Positions 3,395-64,000 of a stretch of 64,000 nucleotides of DNA are shown here, piece by piece (the first letter of the stretch is position 1; the number at the start of each line of letters is the position of its first letter). The DNA is from Magnolia sinica (lineage: Eukaryota > Streptophyta > Magnoliopsida > Magnoliales > Magnoliaceae). Made by a program: the position numbers and the translations under genes. The DNA lies in NCBI RefSeq assembly GCF_029962835.1, contig NC_080586.1, forward strand, positions 67,085,501 to 67,149,500, written 5' to 3'. The notes beneath the pieces are model-generated. The model saw nothing but the letters and a program-made list of their open reading frames with translations, did not search any database and was not told where the DNA came from.

Positions 3395-6300
3395 ATGGAG
3401 GGCGGAGGAACGCTTTCAGAAATCCACCAGAGATCGATGCGTCTGCTTCTTCGAACGCGAGATGGACTGGAGAGGCTCGAACGCCTCAATTCATCTTCCT
3501 CTATCTCCCCGAGCGCCGTCGATTCTCCCGAACTCGTCTTCTCTATCAAGAAAGACATCTCTCAGATCCAATCCCTTTGCGTCGAGATGGACCGTATGTG
3601 GCGCTCCGTCGCCAACAAAGGCCAAAGAGATCTCTGGAAAAGGTACCGTAATCTGAAATGTTAAATGATAAAAAAAAAAACAAAAAACAAAAAACAAAAA
3701 CAAAATCTCTTTTCTATACCCTCTCTTCTTTTGTCCAAACTTTCGATCGGTCGATCAGACGGTTAGGATCGTCCGATCGTTTCCATTGTCGAGGAAACGG
3801 CATAATCCCGTGGATTTCTACAGAACTGGATAATTCTGTTGGGAGTTTTTTACATTTTGTTTAGGGTGCGTTTGGGTGCACCAATGGTGAAGAATATCAT
3901 TCAGGGTGTGTTTGGTTGCATCATATATCGTGAAATTTCATCATTAATCAGTCTATTGGTGAAGAATATCATTCAGGGTGTGTTTGGTTGCATCGTATAT
4001 CGTGAAATTTCATCATTAATCAGTCTATTGGTGAAGAATACCATTCAGGGTGGGTTTGGTTGCACCAAATATCATGAAATTTCATCATTAATCAGTCTAT
4101 TGGTGAAAAATATCATTCAGGGTGCGTTTGGTTGCACCAAATATCATGAAATTTCATCATTAATCAGTCTATTGGTGAAAAATATCATTCAGGGTGTGTT
4201 TGGTTGCACCAAATATCGTGAAATTTCATCATTAATCAGTCTATTGGTGAAAAATATCATCCAAGGTGCATTTGGTTGCACCAAATATCATGAATTTTCA
4301 TGATATTTTGCACCACATTGGACTGTTAATAAGAATTCTGATGGATTTTTACGTTGAGTGGTGTAGTTCAGTTGGATTCACATCCTGTCAATAATAAGGG
4401 TATGGTAATTTTTATTTGAGAATTGGTATTATTAGGGAATTAGGGTCTCTGTGAAATCATGTAGTTCTTTTGGGGATTTTGCATCTTTTTATGTGAATAA
4501 CTCGTGTATGCATGTATGCATGCATGCATGTATTTGTGATGATATATGTCGAATGATTAGGGTTGCAATATTATTCATCGCAAAAGACGAGAAATTATAG
4601 GGCCCTGATTCTAAATAAAGGCTCTTGATAGAGGATGATCATTAAGTTCTGTCTCTATAATATTCTTCCCACACATTTGACTCACCCTGTGTTTGGGTCG
4701 GGTTGGGTAAGGTCCTTGGGCTGGGTTCTTGTTGAACAACACTAACCTGATTTCAATTCAGGTTGGGTTTGGGTTGAGCAAATTTGGTTTGGGGTTAGGT
4801 CAGGTTGGGAACAATGACATGTATTTGGGTCGGGTCTAGCCAGGTTGGGATTCGGGTCGGGTTAGGTTGCGGGTTGGGTCCTCTTGAGGTTGGTTTAGGC
4901 TTTAGTTGGCCCTCAAACCGACTGAACCCACCCGAGTTGCACCCCTATTCTTACCTCTCCTTTCTCTTTTTTCCATCTACAACCATCTTGAGGGAAGCAT
5001 TATCTCCAATTCTTCCAAATGCAATAGGCATCTGAGAACAAAGCATATTATCTCCTATTCTTCCAAATGTATAAGCTAATGGCATTACTAAATTGACACT
5101 CTTTTTTTCTCATTCACAAACAAACATGGGATTCTTTGTGAAAACAGAAAATGTTACAGCAGAACACATCAATAAGCCCTCAAAAAGAGGATAGTTTTAC
5201 CCTAAGTTTTCCCAAACATTTCAGGCACTCTGAGGTGACTCCAGACTTAACTAAAGATGGTCATTTTTATACTACCAGTGATATAAGAGAGTAGCACTAG
5301 CACCTCAGATGTTAGTCTACCTTGAAGGGCATTTGAATTTGGAACTCAATGTGAAGGTCAACTTAGCTTGAGTGTAAAGAAATTGGACTCTATATACCGC
5401 TGATTATTCTGCAACTCATGACTCCATTTGTGACAATTGCGATGCAGATTTTTCCATCAGATGAGAATTTTAGGTAGATCGTATTGGTGAAAAACTTAGG
5501 ATTTTCATCTTAGTTAACAGTTCCCCAAAAGGTTTCTTTAAAGCGTCGAAGGAAATTAGGCACGTGGGCCTTCTCTCCTTGTATTTGTTTGTGGTTGTCG
5601 GGGAGGCCCTCAATATGATGTTGCAGAAAGGAGAGGAAAAGGGGTTGATTAGCGAGTTTAGAGCGTTGGAGGATGGGATCCAAATCAGCCATCTCCAATA
5701 TGTGGATAGCATGATACTGTTTTGTGACACAAATGAGAGATCGGTGGATAATCTTCGAATGATCCTCGTTTGTTTCGAGGTAGTGTCAGGGCTGAAGATT
5801 AATGTTTCCGAGACTGAGATTCTAAGTATTCATCTCAGTGATGCCGATGTAAGCAGCCTTGCGCCCACTTTCGATTATAAGTCAGGGTCTTTTCCCTCCA
5901 CATACCTAGGGTTGCCTTTGTCATTGGGAAGCCAGCGAAACATTTGTGAGATAGGGTGGTCGAAAGAATAGAAGGGAAGCTGGCTAGCTAGAGGTGTAGA
6001 TATCTATCTATGGGTGGCCGTATTACCGTCATTAAGGCGGCTTTCTCTAATATGCCCGTTTATTTCATGTCCCTCTTTAAATGTCCTAAATCAGTGTTGG
6101 AACAGCTTGAAAAGTTGAGAAGGGATTTCTTGTGGAGAGACAATGAGGATGCTAGAAGTTTTATCTTTTCAACTAGGGCAATGTGTGCAAACCTATATTG
6201 ACAAGGGAGGAGCTGGTATTAGAGATTTGGCCCGTATGAATTTAGATCTGCTTGGCAAATGGGTTTGGAGGTTCAGGCGTGGGGAGGGCAAGTTGTGGAG

Positions 6301-18300: not shown

Positions 18301-21300
18301 TGCCTGAGTAGTGGATCCACCTGATTCTTGGGCTAGGGCATCAATATAGTGGTGCAGCTGGTGCTTTTCTGATGGATGGATTGGATCTCAAACCTATCGT
18401 GCCATGCTGGCACATGTGGCATGTTCATGACCTTTATCGCACATGTGTGGCTTAGCCAAAGCTCATTATCTAGAATCAGGTAGTATCAATTCAGCAGCAA
18501 ATTCATCCTGCGATATTGTTATGGAAATATTTCAACATGATTATACTTGCATTCACTAATCAATCCTTGTCATACCATTGTCTTAAGAATTTAGATATTG
18601 ATGATCAGCGAAAATCGCAATCCATGATTTTGACGTTTGATTGTGTTATATCAAATGCAACAGTTTAGTAACTATTTTTCCAATAAGAGTTTTCTCTGTT
18701 CATAGAAGATTTGCTGTATGTTTTCAGAACGGGGACAATGCCCATGTTCTAAGAATTTTTGATGAGGAAGTACAAGCGATGCAGTCAGCACGGAATTCAT
18801 CCTTAATGCTGGAAGAAGCATATAATACTGGAGTGGCCGTTCTCACAAAATATGCAGAACAAAGGGATCGTTTGAAGGTAACTAAGACTCTGGATTTGCA
18901 GCTGCTTCTTACAAAATTTCCTTGTTGAGATGTTCAGCAAACAATATGCTTAAATTCCTGAAGTTTGTCTGAAGTTTCTAGTCGTGACAAACAATATCAT
19001 AGATTGCCAACAACAACAACAACAACAATAATAAATGGCATATATGTTTTTTTTTTTTTTTTTGTAAATACTCAAATCATTTAAAAGAAATTTTGGCCTT
19101 TTTTTTTTTTAAATTCCTTCACTCGAAGCTTCTTCTTCTTCTTCTTTTTTCCTGTCATTTTCTTTCCCAAAAAGAAAACTAAAAGACAGATAAAAAATAG
19201 ATTGACATATGTGACTACTTTCACAGTCACAATCATCACACTTTGTGGCCCGTGATTTCGTCCATTTATTGATGGGCCCTTCCATGGGTTATGAATAGCC
19301 CATAGCCCTAAGGTACTACTATGCAGTCTTAATCCTAACTATCAGATAGGATTTTCTTGCTACTTGAACATAGAAATTGCTAAAGATATTCTTGCTTCTT
19401 GAATGTAGAAATTGCTAAAGATTTTCTTGCTTCTTGAATGTAGAAATTGCTAAAGATTTTCTTGCTTCTTGAATGTAGAAATTGCTCAAGATTGATTCAG
19501 AATGGTCTGTTTGTAGCTTACATTTTGATGGTTATCATCGTTTTGGGTGCAACTTTGGGGTATGACTTATCCATTATAGGGACCAATAGATAAATAGTCC
19601 AGATAATTGCTAGCCTCTTAATATGCAGCAATCATTCGTAGCCTCACTTTTTATTATGAGACTTGTTTGATAGATAATTGCTGGTACCTTTTCAAATATG
19701 TTTCTTTGGAGGAACAGTTAGGGCTGTACACAAACCGAGTTAGCTCGGTTAGCTCGCTCGACTCGACTTGAAAAAGCTCAATCCGACTTGGTTTGAAACT
19801 GAGTTCAAGCCGAGTCGAGCTGTCCCAAGCTCGATTCGGTTCGACTCGTGTACACTTCTAGGAACAGTTCTATGAGTGCAATTTTATTAGAGTTTCAGGA
19901 CAAGTCTTGATCATCATCATCATCTAAACCTTATCCCAACTAATTAGGGTTGGCTGTGTGAATCCTTTTCCACCATTCCACTATCAAGGGCTAGGGACAA
20001 GTCTCAATTAATTAATTCAAAGAGATGGTCTGTCAATTAGTATGACAGCTATGGTCTGGATCAGGCCAGGCCAGTGGAATGCATAAATCACAAAGAACAT
20101 CCTTTTCTTGACTTCTGTATTGCATTTTTAAGAGATTCTAGCCATTGGCTTTTGCCTGTATGTGTGAGCCCACAGAGACCTCATGTGCGAGCCAGTGGCA
20201 TGCCCCAATATGATGCCTCACTGTGACGTGTACATGAAATCTACTCTAACCATCAGGTGCAAAACCCATGTTAGGCCTAGGTTCCAAAAACTAGGCTGGT
20301 TGATGATTCAAGTGGGCCACACCAAGGGAAACTTGTTGTAGGGCTCTGCTGTGCATTGTATTGGACATCCACTCCGAACATCAGATACATCACCAAATTT
20401 TAAGTCGAGGGCCCAAAAACCATGCTGCTCCAATATTCAGGTAGGCTACACCAAGGGAAACAGTTGGGAAGAGGAATGCCCTTGATTTTTTTACAAGCTC
20501 CATTATGATGTCTATGTGAATTCTACTCCTACTATCAGGTGCATCACCACTTGTTATGCCTAATGCCCAAGAACTAGGCCCATCCCTGATCCAAGTGGGC
20601 CACACTAAAGGAAACAATTTGGAGGTTGGGCATCCCCTTGTATACACTATTCCTGGTCGTTTCGCCCACTTAAATTGTGGAAGGGCCTGAATTTTGGACC
20701 ATAAGCCTAACATTGGGTGACATATTTGATGGTTAGTGGATTTCACATACACATCATGGTGGGTCCCACCTTTTGTAGGAGACTAGGACTGTGTGTGTGT
20801 GTTCACAATATCAGTGATGTAGAAACTCCCTTGAATCTGAATAGTTATCAGCAATTTGTCGCCTATGTATCGACACGCGATAATATCGGCAAAATACTGC
20901 CCGAAGCCCTCTTTAAAAGTTCCCTTGTATCAACTATAGTGATGACATTATAACCAATACAGCTCGATAAGGGGGAAAAGGGTACGGGCATAAATGCTCA
21001 GAACTTTAGAAAATATCTAAAATATAGACAAAAAAAAAAGAAGTTTTCTTAAGATTTTTTTCTGGGGGATATGGGTTGGAGGTGGATTTTTGACCGCCTC
21101 TCTTCAAGTTTTTTTGTAATTAAAATCCCTCATTTGGGAGAAATCGGGGAGCGGATTGCCTGTGGCACCCACCACAGGGATATCCCTATGGCACAATGTG
21201 GCCCAAGCTCTATGGGGCCTACTGTGATGTATCTGTTTTACCCACACCACCCATCCATTTTGCCCTCATTTTAGGGCATGTGCCCAAAAATGATGCAAAT

Positions 21301-32200: not shown

Positions 32201-35200
32201 GAAACTTGTTATGCATTCTTTTTGTATTTTTTTTTTTTTTTTAATTTCTAAATATTCAAATATGTACATTTTAACATCTCCTGAAGTTTCGCCGAAAATT
32301 CCACCGTTTTTCCTATGTTTCCCCGCATTTCCGGTTATCAGCGATATTATCGGCGATATCAATATTGTTTCTGTATCCCTGGCCACTGAAACATGTAGCG
32401 ATATCGATACTTCGAATACTGGCTCCAAGTGACCTCTTTCTTCTTTATATCCTTACATTTCTTCCCACATATCCTCAGGATCCCCATCCTTGTAACTTTT
32501 ATCATCTGTTTATGTTGCCACTGAATTTCCCAACACTTTGCCCCACATAGCATAGCGATCTTAGAGTTGTCTTATAAAACTTTTCCTTTAGTTTCATCGG
32601 CACGCTGCAAGCCTACAACTACACACTACTCTAGACGCACACCTCCATTTAATCTACCCAGCTCTAGTTATAATGTTAAGAACTATAACCATTCACATGG
32701 TGGGAGAAAGAGGAAGAGAAAAGACTCTTTGGAGAAAGGGTAATATTTTCGATTAAGATCCCACTGTTAATGACATAACATTAACCCTAATAAACAAATG
32801 AAGGAAATGATGTCCAAAAGGAGTATTAAAGTAAATTAAAAACGCCCATACAAAACGTACATGTGTACTCACACTCGCCACTCTACACTCCCACTCCCCC
32901 TCAATCTACAGCATAAATTACAAACATGCTCGGCTTGCCCATTATAGTGTGAAGATGCAATGGATGAAGAGCCTTCGCAAGTAGATATGCCAGCTGATCA
33001 TTTGTCCGAACATGAGGAGTACAAAGAAGCTCAAACAAAATCTTCGCACAAACAAAGCGACATTGAGCTTGATGTGCTCTATCCTTACGTGAAAGACAGG
33101 GTTCAGTGCAATGTGAATAGCAGCCTGACTGTTACAGCACAAGAAAATTGGAGTAGAAACTGAGATTTGCATGTCCCAAAGGAGAGACTAAAGCCAAATA
33201 ACCTCGCATGTTGCATGAACCATAGAGCAATACTTTGCATCGACAAACAAATGAGCCGCCATTGATTATTTCTTACTTTTCCATAAACCAGCTTGCCTCC
33301 AAGGCTCCAACAAACATTCAGTAACCAGAAGTGGAATGGTGATCATTGGACGATCCAGCCCAATTTGTACACAATATGCCTGGATATTGAAATGATCAGG
33401 ATCAGCATACAAGAGCCCTTTTTTGAGAAGTGGATTTCAAGTAATGAAGAATTCAGTATATGGATTTAAGAAGATGAGCTTGCATGAACTGACTGACCAC
33501 AGACAGCATACACAATGTTGGGTTGACTAAGTATCAAATAAATGAGCTTTCCTGCTCATGAGAGCTGGGCATCGAGTCGAGTCGGACCAGATTGGGTCCA
33601 ACTCGACTCGGTCCGAAATTTCCATGGCCTGACCTGAATTTGATTCGATCCGGGACCGAGTCCGGGACATCTCACTCGATCCGATCCGAGTCGGACTCAA
33701 ATTGGGTACGGTTCAAATCGGTCTTGATGTTTTCTTCCCCTTTTTTTTTCGGAAAATTAAAATTAAAATAAAAAAATTCGGACCTACGCAATCTCCTCGA
33801 ACCCTTTTGGAAAGAACTGATCCCAAACTGCAGACCTATGCATTTCTCCTGCTAATGAAACATTCCCCAGGGGCTGCGGACCAAACCAAGCCATATCGAG
33901 ATCTAAGATTTGAAAGTGGTTACAACAACATCGATGCCATCCGATTCAAAGAACAAGGTCTAGTTCAAGATCTCTCTAGCACAGAGGTTCCGTAGGATTT
34001 TAAGAGGGAGAGATATTGGATACAGGGAGTGAGAAAAGAGAGATAGGAGGGGTCGGGCTGGATGGAGATGAGTACGGCGCTCGTTCGGGCAGAGAAAGAG
34101 AAAGAAAAGATTGGGGATTTAGGGTTCGGGTGAGGGTAGCTGCTGCCGGGTAGGTAAAATGTAAAAATAAAAAATAAAAAACTACTTACATAGACCTGAC
34201 CGGATCGGATCCAATCGAATCGGATTGGTCAGGATTGACCACTGATCCGAACTCGATCCAATGTACGGTTGGATCTGACTGGGCCAACTCGATCCGATCC
34301 AATCCTAGCCTTCGGTTCGGATCGAATCGGGTCGGATCCGTCGGATTGGTTCGGTTTCTACCCAGCTCTATTGCTAATTGTTGATGCATGCTTGGGTTAC
34401 TAAGAGCTGTAGAATCTGTATTGTGTAGATGATGATTGATTTTAATTGGTGTAGATGTCGAATGGGCGCCCAACATGTCGATCTTATGAAGAAGGTGAAG
34501 AGTATATTTTCACTCAGATATAAATATACTATGCCCAATCAAGCTCTCAGAAAGTATTTAATGCAGGGGCATTTTCACACCAGGCTCAAGTGAGGTTGTT
34601 TGTGGGATGCGGGGGCACACTCGAGGTAGGCGGGGCCCACGGGGAAAGTCTCGTGTTCGAGACTCCTCACCGGGGGTGATTAATGTGCATTTCACACCGG
34701 ACTCGAGTGGGGTAGCCTGTGGGATGCGGGGACACACTCGGGGAGGGCGGCCCATGTGAGGCGGTACCCATTTGATTTGGGGTCCACGAGGGAAGTTCAG
34801 CCGAGGTCCTAACCCATGAGATGTGGGGCCTAGGCTATGAGATACAAAGATTAATTCGTCATACTCTAATAGTTCGAGCTTTTAGAGCAAGTGGTTAATT
34901 GTCTGCATCAAATTGGTATCAGAGCGGGAGGTCTCGTGTTCGAGACTCCTCAGCGGGGGTGATTAATGCAGGGGCATTTTCACACCGGGCTCGAGTGGGG
35001 TCTCCTATGGGATGCAGGGGCACACTTGGGGTGGGCAAGACCCACGAGGGAAGTCTCGTGTTCAAGACTCCTCACCAGGGGTGATTAGTGCGCATTTCAC
35101 ACCGGGTTCGAGTGGGGTAGCCTGTGGGATGCGGGGACACACTCGGGGTGGGCGGCCCATGTGAGGCAGTACCCATGTGATTTGGGGCCCACGAGGAGGG

Positions 35201-38200
35201 TTCGGCCAAGGTCCTAAACCATGAGATGTGGGGTCTGGGCTATGAGATAAAGGGATTAATTCGCCATACTCTAACAGTTCGATCTTTTAGAGCAAGTGGT
35301 TAATTGTCCTGCATCAGTATTTGAGCAAGGCCAAATCTTTAATTTCAAAGGACCTCACCAAAAACTGCTTCAGCATAGCAAAATCGCTTTCACTATCACC
35401 AGTGAGAACAATATTGTCCACGTAAACTGCAAGGGCAGTGAATGAGGAACTAGCGTCTTTAATGAAAACATAGTGATCATAAGCACTTCTACGAAATCCA
35501 ATATAGGAAATGACATTCGTGTTTCTCAAACCATGCTTTGGTGATTGTTTGATTCCATACAAAGCTTTCTTCAGCCTGGAGTCTTTGCTCTTGTGCCTGA
35601 TAGTCAAAAGGCAGGAGGGAGAAATATGTAAACTTCTTCGTGAAGATTGCTGTGAAGGAAGGCTTTCTTGCGTTAAGTTGATGAAGGGACCAACAATGGT
35701 GTGCAGCTACAGATATGAGCACATTCACGCAATTCATCTTGGAATCACGCCTCAACTGTTGTGTGAACCCCTTCAAAATGAGACAGGCCTTGCATCTAAC
35801 AAGAACCCCTTTACACCTTTACAATTTGGATTGTGCTTAAGGGCGCATATACAACCCACAATGTGTTTATCATCAGGGCATTCTACTAGATCCTGTGTTC
35901 CCCACTTCTCAAGAGCTGCCATTTCCTCCATCCTTGCAGCTTTCCAACTAGGGCCAACCAAGGCATCTTTGACATTTGGTGGAAAAGAAATAGAGAAGAT
36001 GGATGAAAGAAAACCTTTAAAGGAATAACAAATGTGCTCATAAGAAACAAAGTTACTGATGGGATGAGAGGTGCTTGATCAGTATTTTTCAGGATAAGCG
36101 TTTGGCTTTCCAAAGAGCAATGGGTAGCTCAGGTAAGGTGTGAAAGAACCAATGTCAGGAGATTGATGGTTGTTTGTCTCTGGCACCAAGTTGGAGGATG
36201 GATAGTGGGTAATCATCTCTGAAAGGTTATCTCTGCGCTTTCTGTGAGTATACACCTTAGACACATACAGTTGTCAACATCTGGGAGAGGAAACACAATA
36301 CTGCATTCTCAAAGAAAGTAACATCCTTGGAGATGTGCCTTTTTCTAGTATCTGGACAATAACACTTGTAACTTGAGTATTAGCATATCCTAAGAAAACA
36401 TACTAAAGTGACTCAGGACTTAATTTATCCCTAGAGGACCCTAAGATTTGCACAAAGCACACAATCAAAGGTTTTTGGTGAAATAGAAAATAGTTATAGA
36501 TCAGGTTTTCACAATTTTAGATGGCATCCTATTGATCAAATAGGGGCAGTAAGGGTTGCCTCATCCTAGTAGATCTATAGAACATTCATCCCTGTAAAGA
36601 GGGATCTAGTGACCTCCAGAAGATGACGATCTCTGTTCTGTTGAGGAGATACGAACCCAATGTCTGGAATTCTATGCCATGATCGTACTAGTCTTGACGA
36701 TCATAACATAGGCATTCTTTAGTATTATCAGACTGAAGCACTTTATTTTCTTATCAAATTGAGTAATAACCATTTTATATACTTCAAAAATAAAAAAAGG
36801 AACTTAACAATTAGGTGACGCTTCGCTTCTTAATTTCATCAAATAAATCCCTGTGAATCAAAAACTAAAAAAAGTGTTGAACTTTTATAAGTACTAGGAG
36901 TAAATGTTGTGTGACAATGTTTTGACAATAACAAACATCACACTTGAATTCCACATCTAACTGAAATTTATTGGGAAATAATATCCTAAGACACTTAGTA
37001 GACAAGTGACCTAAGCAAGCATGCCAAAGCTGGATGTGCTTTATTTTTGAGACCCGACTTAGAGACAAGAACAGAAGAAATGCCCTCGGCATCAAAGAAG
37101 TACAGGCCTTGAGATTCACATCCACCGCCAATCCTCCTCTTGGCTTACAGATCCTGTATAAAATAATAAGGAAAGAAATTGATGCAACAGTTCAATTGTT
37201 TAGTTAGGGCACTGACTGACAATAAATTGGAAGGAAACCTAGACATATTAAGAACAAATGGTAACATTAAGGATGATGAGAGGTGATAAGCACCTTTCCC
37301 AGAGGCCCTGGAAAAAAATACATCAACAAGTTTGATGAGACTTAAGGAACCTGAATACAATAGAATATTAACTTTGGTATTGGTCATATGATTCGTAGCT
37401 CCGAGTCAATAGTCCAAGACGTGAAAGGAAGAGAATGTGACTGAGCGAAATGAGCAGATGTCCCTGGCTATCCGCTCGAAGTGCGGGCTAAATGAGAGGA
37501 ACATAGCTCCGAGCTCTTGCCGTAGGTCAGTAATGGGCTTGCTGAGGGCACCTATCTGCTCCCTCAAGTCTGAAACACTATCTGAAAGCTGCTTCCCGTC
37601 AACCTCAACATTATGAGCTGCTTTCTTGAGCTTAGGTTGCAGATGAGGGTGGACATCATACCAATGCTCATGCACATTTGCAATGACTGCAGATAGACTA
37701 GTTTGCCTTTGTCACTGTTCTGGTAAAAGGATCATGACTAGTTTGCCTTTGTCACTGTTCTGGTAAAAGGATCATGACTAGTTTGCCTTTGTCACTGTTC
37801 TCCCTACCAACAAGTTTACTGTAGCCTCCCTTCTATGACTATCCTTCCAAAGTGGCATTTGAAATACTCTGGCTTTGTTTTGCTAATTTTGAAGATCTAG
37901 ATTATGGAGCCTTCCTCTAAACCTCTGAGTTAGCATTGGCACCCTCTCTATTCTTGTGGACCATCGCCATATATTTGGCAAACAACATACACCAAGGGAC
38001 CAAAACTAATGAAATCAATGATAGATAAGAAAACATAAACTAATGAAATTACTAACCACAATTAGCTGCATCAAGACATAATGAATGGTAGTTGCTATTT
38101 GGTTGTCTTTTGAAGTAGGACATGGAAAATTATTTTGGAGGTACTCCTAGATCAAACCCATAACTCCAACATGAAGACCTCATTGTGTACTGACCACCAG

Positions 38201-63693: not shown

Positions 63694-63745
<52 letters not shown>

Positions 63746-64000
63746 CCTCACCTCTACTTGGTATCAAAGCCACAAGTCTTGTGTTCGAATCCCGGGAGCA
63801 GCAAATATGCTTTCCTAATATATTCTCCCACGAGGGGCCATTTATGGTGTGAGTTGTGAGTGTCCCTCCAACCTTGCCCAATATATTCCCGTGCGGAGTT
63901 CCACCTCGCACGTGCAGGGGAATGTTAAAGTCCCTTGATATACATTGATATGCCATCCTCTAACGGCTCGAGCTTTCAGATCTCCAGGACCTCTTGTTGA
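63300..64000 (+). mobile_element. LTR retrotransposon end with primer site, cut by the window edge
   Basis: A likely LTR part with CATAATAAAAG (poly(A)-signal-like, near 63650) ends after a (CT)n of about 24 units (63696-63743) at CCTCACCTCTAC. It is followed at 63759-63770 by TGGTATCAAAGC, a close match to the initiator-Met primer site, and by GTGTTCGAATCCCGGG. The interior continues past 64000, so family and state cannot be judged. The start at about 63300 is a guess. Confidence 0.5.

Follow-up and report, generated by a model that had tools for sequence, protein, structure and literature searches.

Plant terminal-repeat retrotransposons in miniature (TRIMs) are, as the survey in PMC4717578 presents them, elements of less than 1,500 bp that encode no protein, carry a primer site, make 5-bp target duplications, and occur as several complete copies and in arrays. 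The same source derives them from large elements by internal deletion, and gives long terminal repeats (LTRs) of less than 250 bp for 68% of 289 subfamilies. The element that concerns us here has all the traits of that first list. It lies in a 64,000-nucleotide stretch of Magnolia sinica DNA (assembly GCF_029962835.1, contig NC_080586.1, positions 67,085,501 to 67,149,500 of the forward strand), the whole of which we call the window. Where it departs from the TRIMs of the survey is in its LTR, which is longer than most and compound, and in its interior of only 53 bp. Most of that interior is also present inside each LTR, a feature that the preliminary description of the locus had missed. The best explanation, and one we hold with a little better than even confidence, is that a template switch and a shift in purine-tract priming turned former interior into LTR.

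Several other small elements invite comparison. SMART (FRetro129; PMC3281118) is likewise a very small non-autonomous LTR element with a 5-bp duplication, but its LTRs are 85 bp, its interior is 122 bp and its ends are TGT...ACA. Cassandra (PMC7215508) is likewise a TRIM with arrays, template switching being one of two array mechanisms proposed there; it differs in that its LTR holds 5S sequence. TARE1 of tomato (PMC5659011) has LTR ends TA..CA as here, a likeness of ends alone. In Del elements the length of the LTR also varies, which in PMC4029996 is a matter of variable CpG islands and not of captured interior.

The preliminary description had proposed a complete TRIM with LTRs of 352 and 353 bp, a 53-bp interior and GTATT on both sides, and these coordinates proved exact. 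The features of the element are as follows.

34554..34558, no strand: left target site duplication GTATT, 5 bp
34559..34910, plus strand: LTR1, 352 bp, ends TA...CA
34559..34642, plus strand: outer head of LTR1 (H1), the first copy of the LTR start
34643..34680, plus strand: copy of the interior tail (T) within LTR1, with the purine-tract-like GGGGGTGAT, 35/38 identical to 34926-34963
34681..34910, plus strand: inner unit of LTR1, a complete short LTR whose start has decayed (compare locus L048 and the short-LTR copies)
34911..34963, plus strand: interior, 53 bp
34914..34925, plus strand: primer binding site TGGTATCAGAGC, its sole exact match within the window
34926..34963, plus strand: interior tail (T), ending in the purine-tract-like GGGGGTGAT just before LTR2
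34964..35316, plus strand: LTR2, 353 bp
35048..35085, plus strand: copy of T within LTR2, 34/38 identical to 34926-34963
35086..35316, plus strand: inner unit of LTR2, a complete short LTR (compare L048)
35317..35321, no strand: right target site duplication GTATT, 5 bp

The whole TRIM is 758 bp. Its LTRs match at 311 of 352 aligned bases (88%; blastn E 1.6e-127), with one 1-bp indel and a Kimura two-parameter (K2P) distance of 0.130. The differences are 35 transitions and 6 transversions, an excess such as the decay of methylated CpG would give. The primer site, which we take to be of the initiator-methionine tRNA (tRNA-iMet) type, begins three bases beyond the end of LTR1; the preliminary description had the three-base offset right, though its wording may suggest a site inside LTR1. 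On the 5' side of LTR2, adjoining its start, is GCGGGGGTGAT, purine-rich although not pure, a putative polypurine tract. The interior had been called short even for a TRIM, and so it is: set beside the 122 bp of SMART, those of Helenus-1_SMo and CcaRetroS9 are 85 bp and 129 bp (implied). Five open reading frames of 61-107 aa in the element had no Pfam match up to E 0.1. Single-strand folds of the junction and interior are unremarkable (z between -0.4 and -1.6, with +1.3 at 63745-63800), and neither a 22-letter piece of the interior in viral contigs nor the whole element in a plasmid collection found a match.

The heart of the matter is the LTR itself. The last 38 of the 53 interior bases recur in each LTR and are followed there by a second LTR-like start; the alignments of the two T copies score 32 and 30 against maxima of 16.5 and 12.5 in 200 shuffles. 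Each LTR is thus laid out as a head (H1), the interior tail with its purine tract, and a complete short LTR. In the window element, H1 of LTR1 and H1 of LTR2 are 81% identical and the inner heads 90%, while H1 matches the inner heads at 72-76%. Each pair is closest to its own kind, and the compound layout therefore predates this insertion. When four compound copies are compared with the 5' LTR and interior of locus L058 (itself a short/compound element, that is, with a short 5' and a compound 3' LTR), the point where H1 passes into T lies inside a G run common to the short LTR and the interior, or just at its edge.

Other identities were tried for the element and set aside. Even at E 10, Rfam gave no 5S match, as Cassandra would call for, and no hammerhead match, as would a retrozyme, which has a hammerhead ribozyme in its LTR; the five matches that it did return (E 1.8-9.4) are all far under gathering scores. 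Short interspersed nuclear elements are non-LTR insertions with longer, variable duplications, and the 5-bp duplications and two LTRs rule out one of these. Helenus (TRIMp3; PMC10886601) is likewise a plant TRIM with a 5-bp duplication, and T has a box-B-like GTTCGAGAC; here, by eye, the box-A-like and box-B-like stretches straddle the junction of LTR and interior, and do not lie within one LTR. A possible Pol III junction, which we have not set aside, would be made of the box-A-like TAGAGCAAGTGG at the LTR end and the box-B-like stretch in T. In the T copies inside the LTRs the box-B-like core shows no special conservation. Helenus, with its tRNA-like sequence in the LTR, was rejected too: ARAGORN found 0 tRNAs in the window, and the box-like motifs are seen by eye only.

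The window element has a large family. In the 1.84-Gb assembly (127 contigs) the LTR query gave 5,113 first-look candidates, 40 of which were scored, with 69 matches; the listed family sites are spread over contigs C1 to C19. Junctions of primer site and interior number 1,858 genome-wide at up to 2 mismatches, and LTR 3' ends 7,064 by pattern at the same tolerance (reversed controls 0 in both cases); the exact primer-site word has 22,325 copies over all families together (reversed control 158). The duplications of 69 elements outside arrays agree at five of five bases in 48, at four in 14 and at three or fewer in 7. As the scoring tolerated a one-base shift at each end, a four-base match is singly weak evidence. 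The 48 perfect duplications comprise 46 different sequences. A flank-against-flank blast of 138 flanks returned 20 non-self rows, six of them pairing the two flanks of a single locus, L071 or L091, and the other 14 short matches that link different loci at scattered positions. Flanking sequence shared beyond the duplication was what the preliminary description had named as its refutation. With duplications mostly distinct and flank matches few and scattered, the TRIM does not belong to any larger repeat.

Single LTRs lacking a primer site on the strand read make up 12 of 40 loci (L009-L048), their duplications agreeing at five of five bases in 4, four in 7 and two in 1. LTRs start with TA in 198 of 206 cases and with TG in none (the probe itself began with TA), and end in CA in 192 of 206; the family thus departs from the canonical TG...CA ends. 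Two tandem arrays were found, L016 with three LTRs (flanks TACAT/TACGT) and L023 with four (AAATA/AAATA). The last part of the window (63759-64000) has a second primer-site-like word, TGGTATCAAAGC, and after it GTCTTGTGTTCGA, the 13-base stretch of the TRIM interior with one change; positions ~63955-63985 look by eye like the 3' part of the TRIM LTR. What lies here is apparently a related element cut by the end of the window.

If an LTR has swallowed its interior, relatives with a short LTR are to be expected, and such copies were found. Copies such as L053, L072 and L067 have LTRs that lack an internal T and mostly measure 218-295 bp. They too carry the interior of primer site and T, although that interior served as the probe that found them. 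We read two samples. The first, L050-L078, comprises 29 loci from a junction-similarity search (30 of 40 listed places were extracted, among them that of the window itself), and its 33 rows divide into 15 compound/compound, 6 short/short, 4 short/compound and 8 incomplete or ambiguous. One counted as short/short, L059, has a 3' LTR that by eye resembles a compound LTR with another deletion. The second, L079-L118, comprises 40 loci, the first 42 exact junctions of primer site and interior less two already in the sample, and 38 of these yielded primer-site rows, 41 in all. Short/short rows number 14, of which 3 belong to arrays, and compound/compound rows 8; a further 3 are short/compound and have an undecayed inner head. 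Loss between T copies has made 2 rows compound/short, and L115 is compound/short too, although no 5' head could be found in it. L110 has an odd 5' start, and the other 12 rows are ambiguous or incomplete. The two losses are L085 and L096, which have a compound 5' LTR, a 3' LTR starting at the inner head and perfect duplications (GTACA and CCCAA); the loss on their 3' side lies between the two T copies. Locus L112 seemed at first to hold a third-generation LTR, but the sequence upstream revealed an array.

An ordinary tandem duplication within the LTR, its end later copied into the interior as the tail, is a very unlikely source of this arrangement. Tandem repeats inside LTRs are common, and by eye there are other small duplications in the LTR bodies of this family. 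Yet the duplicated unit starts where the LTR starts and ends with the stretch that, in the interior, lies directly against the LTR start, and the T interior of the short-LTR copies, with the reservation about the probe, speaks against it as well.

Between the short-LTR and the compound copies lies a series of head states, which we scored for a 5-base block (full or del5) and a T run (T4 or T3). Short-LTR starts are full/T4 in all 30 that could be scored, out of 32. Compound outer heads are full in all 73 scorable of 82, and T4 in 71. The inner heads of compound/compound elements are del5/T3 in all 76 scorable, again of 82. The inner heads of L080, L099 and L102 are full/T3, and all three elements have perfect duplications. 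Full/T3 heads are an intermediate state; the order of the states in time is one we infer. In L099 and L102 the 5' LTR also starts full/T3, as expected of an element with a short LTR and a ~175-bp interior that used its inner purine tract. Genome-wide, at up to 3 mismatches, there are 91 full/T3 inner junctions and 860 del5/T3 (reversed controls 0). Three pairs of the full/T3 kind are exactly 135 bp apart (C6:85806853, C10:18851458 and C12:27439267), which suggests a repeated unit and a further round of repetition. The compound LTR and this series are what is new here. For LTR growth by duplication of a purine tract, no paper was found by title or start of abstract in a search that most subscription journals lie outside.

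How might such an LTR have come about? In LTR retrotransposons the plus strand starts at the purine tract, which sets the LTR start. The anatomy, the relatives with short LTRs, the intermediate heads and the duplications can be read in the sequences; a template switch, a priming shift, a direction for the change and a helper are what we infer. The element would be a dead non-autonomous TRIM, once moved by tRNA-primed reverse transcription with the proteins of another element. Its ancestors would have had short LTRs and the 53-bp interior of primer site and T. Minus-strand synthesis may then have copied the short LTR and T and switched, at the G run, into the U3 of an LTR on the same or a co-packaged RNA. 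The product would run primer site-T-H1-T-short LTR, with an interior of ~175 bp and two purine tracts. Had the plus strand next started at the outer tract and not the inner, H1-T would have joined the LTR on both sides in one round, giving an LTR of 352 bp and an interior of 53 bp once more. The inner start, no longer an integration end, would then have decayed.

Much the same product could come from a tandem array of the form LTR-interior-LTR that lost the 3' part of its middle LTR and the primer site and was afterwards copied as one LTR. Arrays do occur in the family (L016 and L023), and tandemly arrayed TRIMs (TA-TRIMs) are common in plants according to PMC4717578. This route, which we consider improbable, needs an array, a deletion and priming at the inner tract where one template switch gives the same product. 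The two origins can hardly be separated here, since the resulting sequences are almost identical.

The direction of change could also be the opposite. The compound LTR may be the older form, and short LTRs may have arisen from it when H1 and the inner head, as direct repeats, recombined or slipped against each other; an event in plus-strand strong-stop DNA would shrink the 5' LTR only. Crossover points do vary, late in L061 and L080 and early in L058 and L064, and nine short 5' LTRs face a compound 3' side against one 3' LTR (two-sided binomial p=0.02). The nine are L058, L061, L064, L076, L080, L099 and L102, with both ends, and L051 and L063, with a truncated 3' side; the one is L115, its 5' head not found. 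Adding the losses in L085 and L096 makes it 9 against 3 (p=0.15), however, and complete copies alone give 7 against 2 (p=0.18). An older compound LTR would also leave the origin of T inside the LTR unexplained, together with the greater overall divergence of short/short copies, and some short/short bodies (L066 and L067) have repeats not seen by eye in the compound LTRs inspected. We judge it unlikely that the compound form came first.

Growth of the LTR by template switch and priming shift has its own difficulties, and we gather them here. Divergence between LTRs favours it overall, the median K2P of the inner LTR part being 0.115 in short/short copies (n=16) against 0.094 in compound/compound copies (n=43; p=0.0009; transversions p=0.008), but the compound sample was partly chosen by similarity to the window LTR; in a less biased subset the difference, 0.117 (n=11) against 0.100 (n=8), is not significant (p=0.11; transversions p=0.13). 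Three intermediate copies have been read, no more, and L099 has much of its 3' LTR body gone. The 5' LTR start of L080 is H1-like. In L058, L061 and L064, too, the 5' short LTR starts like H1, fitting a collapse between H1 and inner head rather than inner priming, and L076 combines a full/T3 start of its 5' LTR with an inner head of the del5 type. Collapse also happens, as several of the short 5' LTRs are chimeras of H1 and inner head whose crossover points differ, and in L085 and L096 H1-T was lost on the 3' side. Several almost constant sites distinguish H1 from the inner head, and the compound LTR may therefore bring two lineages together. The classes were not cleanly separated in a tree built from 140-bp LTR ends (L009-L078), pairing of junctions at LTR distance did not tell the two head types apart (2 pairs in 91 against 2 in the first 100 listed of 860), and no helper element was found.

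The TRIM sits in an older element, of which these parts can be recognized.

34374..34558, minus strand: Copia fossil resumed beyond the TRIM, frame rejoined; a 45-aa piece with no Pfam match
35314..35706, minus strand: Copia reverse transcriptase (RT) fossil, the target, RVT_2 (Pfam E 2.3e-11)
36865..37405, minus strand: gag-pre-integrase and Pol_BBD remnants of Copia, presumed to belong to this fossil (E 2.5e-6 and 8.3e-4, both under curated cut-offs)

When the flanks are joined at one GTATT, the RT stretch (...SFEIKDLALLKYFLRA) runs in a single frame across the insertion point, with a stop about six codons beyond it that fits a fossil. The preliminary description held that Copia RT resumes on each side. 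The rejoined frame bears this out, with RVT_2 on one side and the 45-aa piece on the other assigned by frame and eye only. That the TRIM inserted into Copia, in that order, is well supported by the rejoined frame and the RVT_2 match, and a complete TRIM inside a Copia fossil, as first described, is what the anatomy supports too. There is an apparent second interruption of the fossil, a TCGGATC-rich insert at window positions 33527-34373 (borders by eye), part of which (33552-33698) is 84% complementary to 178-324. Elsewhere the window has a tandem repeat of period 72 at 3813-4376, with three adjacent 204-nt copies 92-95% like the reference copy, and one of period 35 at 19315-19489, with four overlapping 70-nt copies in register.

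What might this small element tell us about LTR retrotransposons at large? Deletion is the usual explanation for changes in LTR length and for TRIMs with long LTRs and tiny interiors. This family seems to show the opposite, interior turned into LTR, and a single genome still holds a candidate ancestor and a candidate intermediate. The wider idea, which we put forward tentatively and at somewhat less than even confidence, is that the boundaries of LTRs can move outward like a ratchet: once a template switch has doubled the start site of the plus strand, priming moves to the outer copy and interior becomes LTR, one genome keeping ancestor, intermediate and outcome. Were this so, the ancestor would be the short LTR, the intermediate a short LTR with a ~175-bp interior and the outcome a compound LTR with a 53-bp interior, some loci having gone on to a further repeat of the 135-bp unit. 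Elements with a short 5' and a compound 3' LTR would record the reverse-transcription phase of the boundary's move, or of its collapse. And because the LTR start is fixed by where the plus strand starts, the family would be a natural record of start-site choice.

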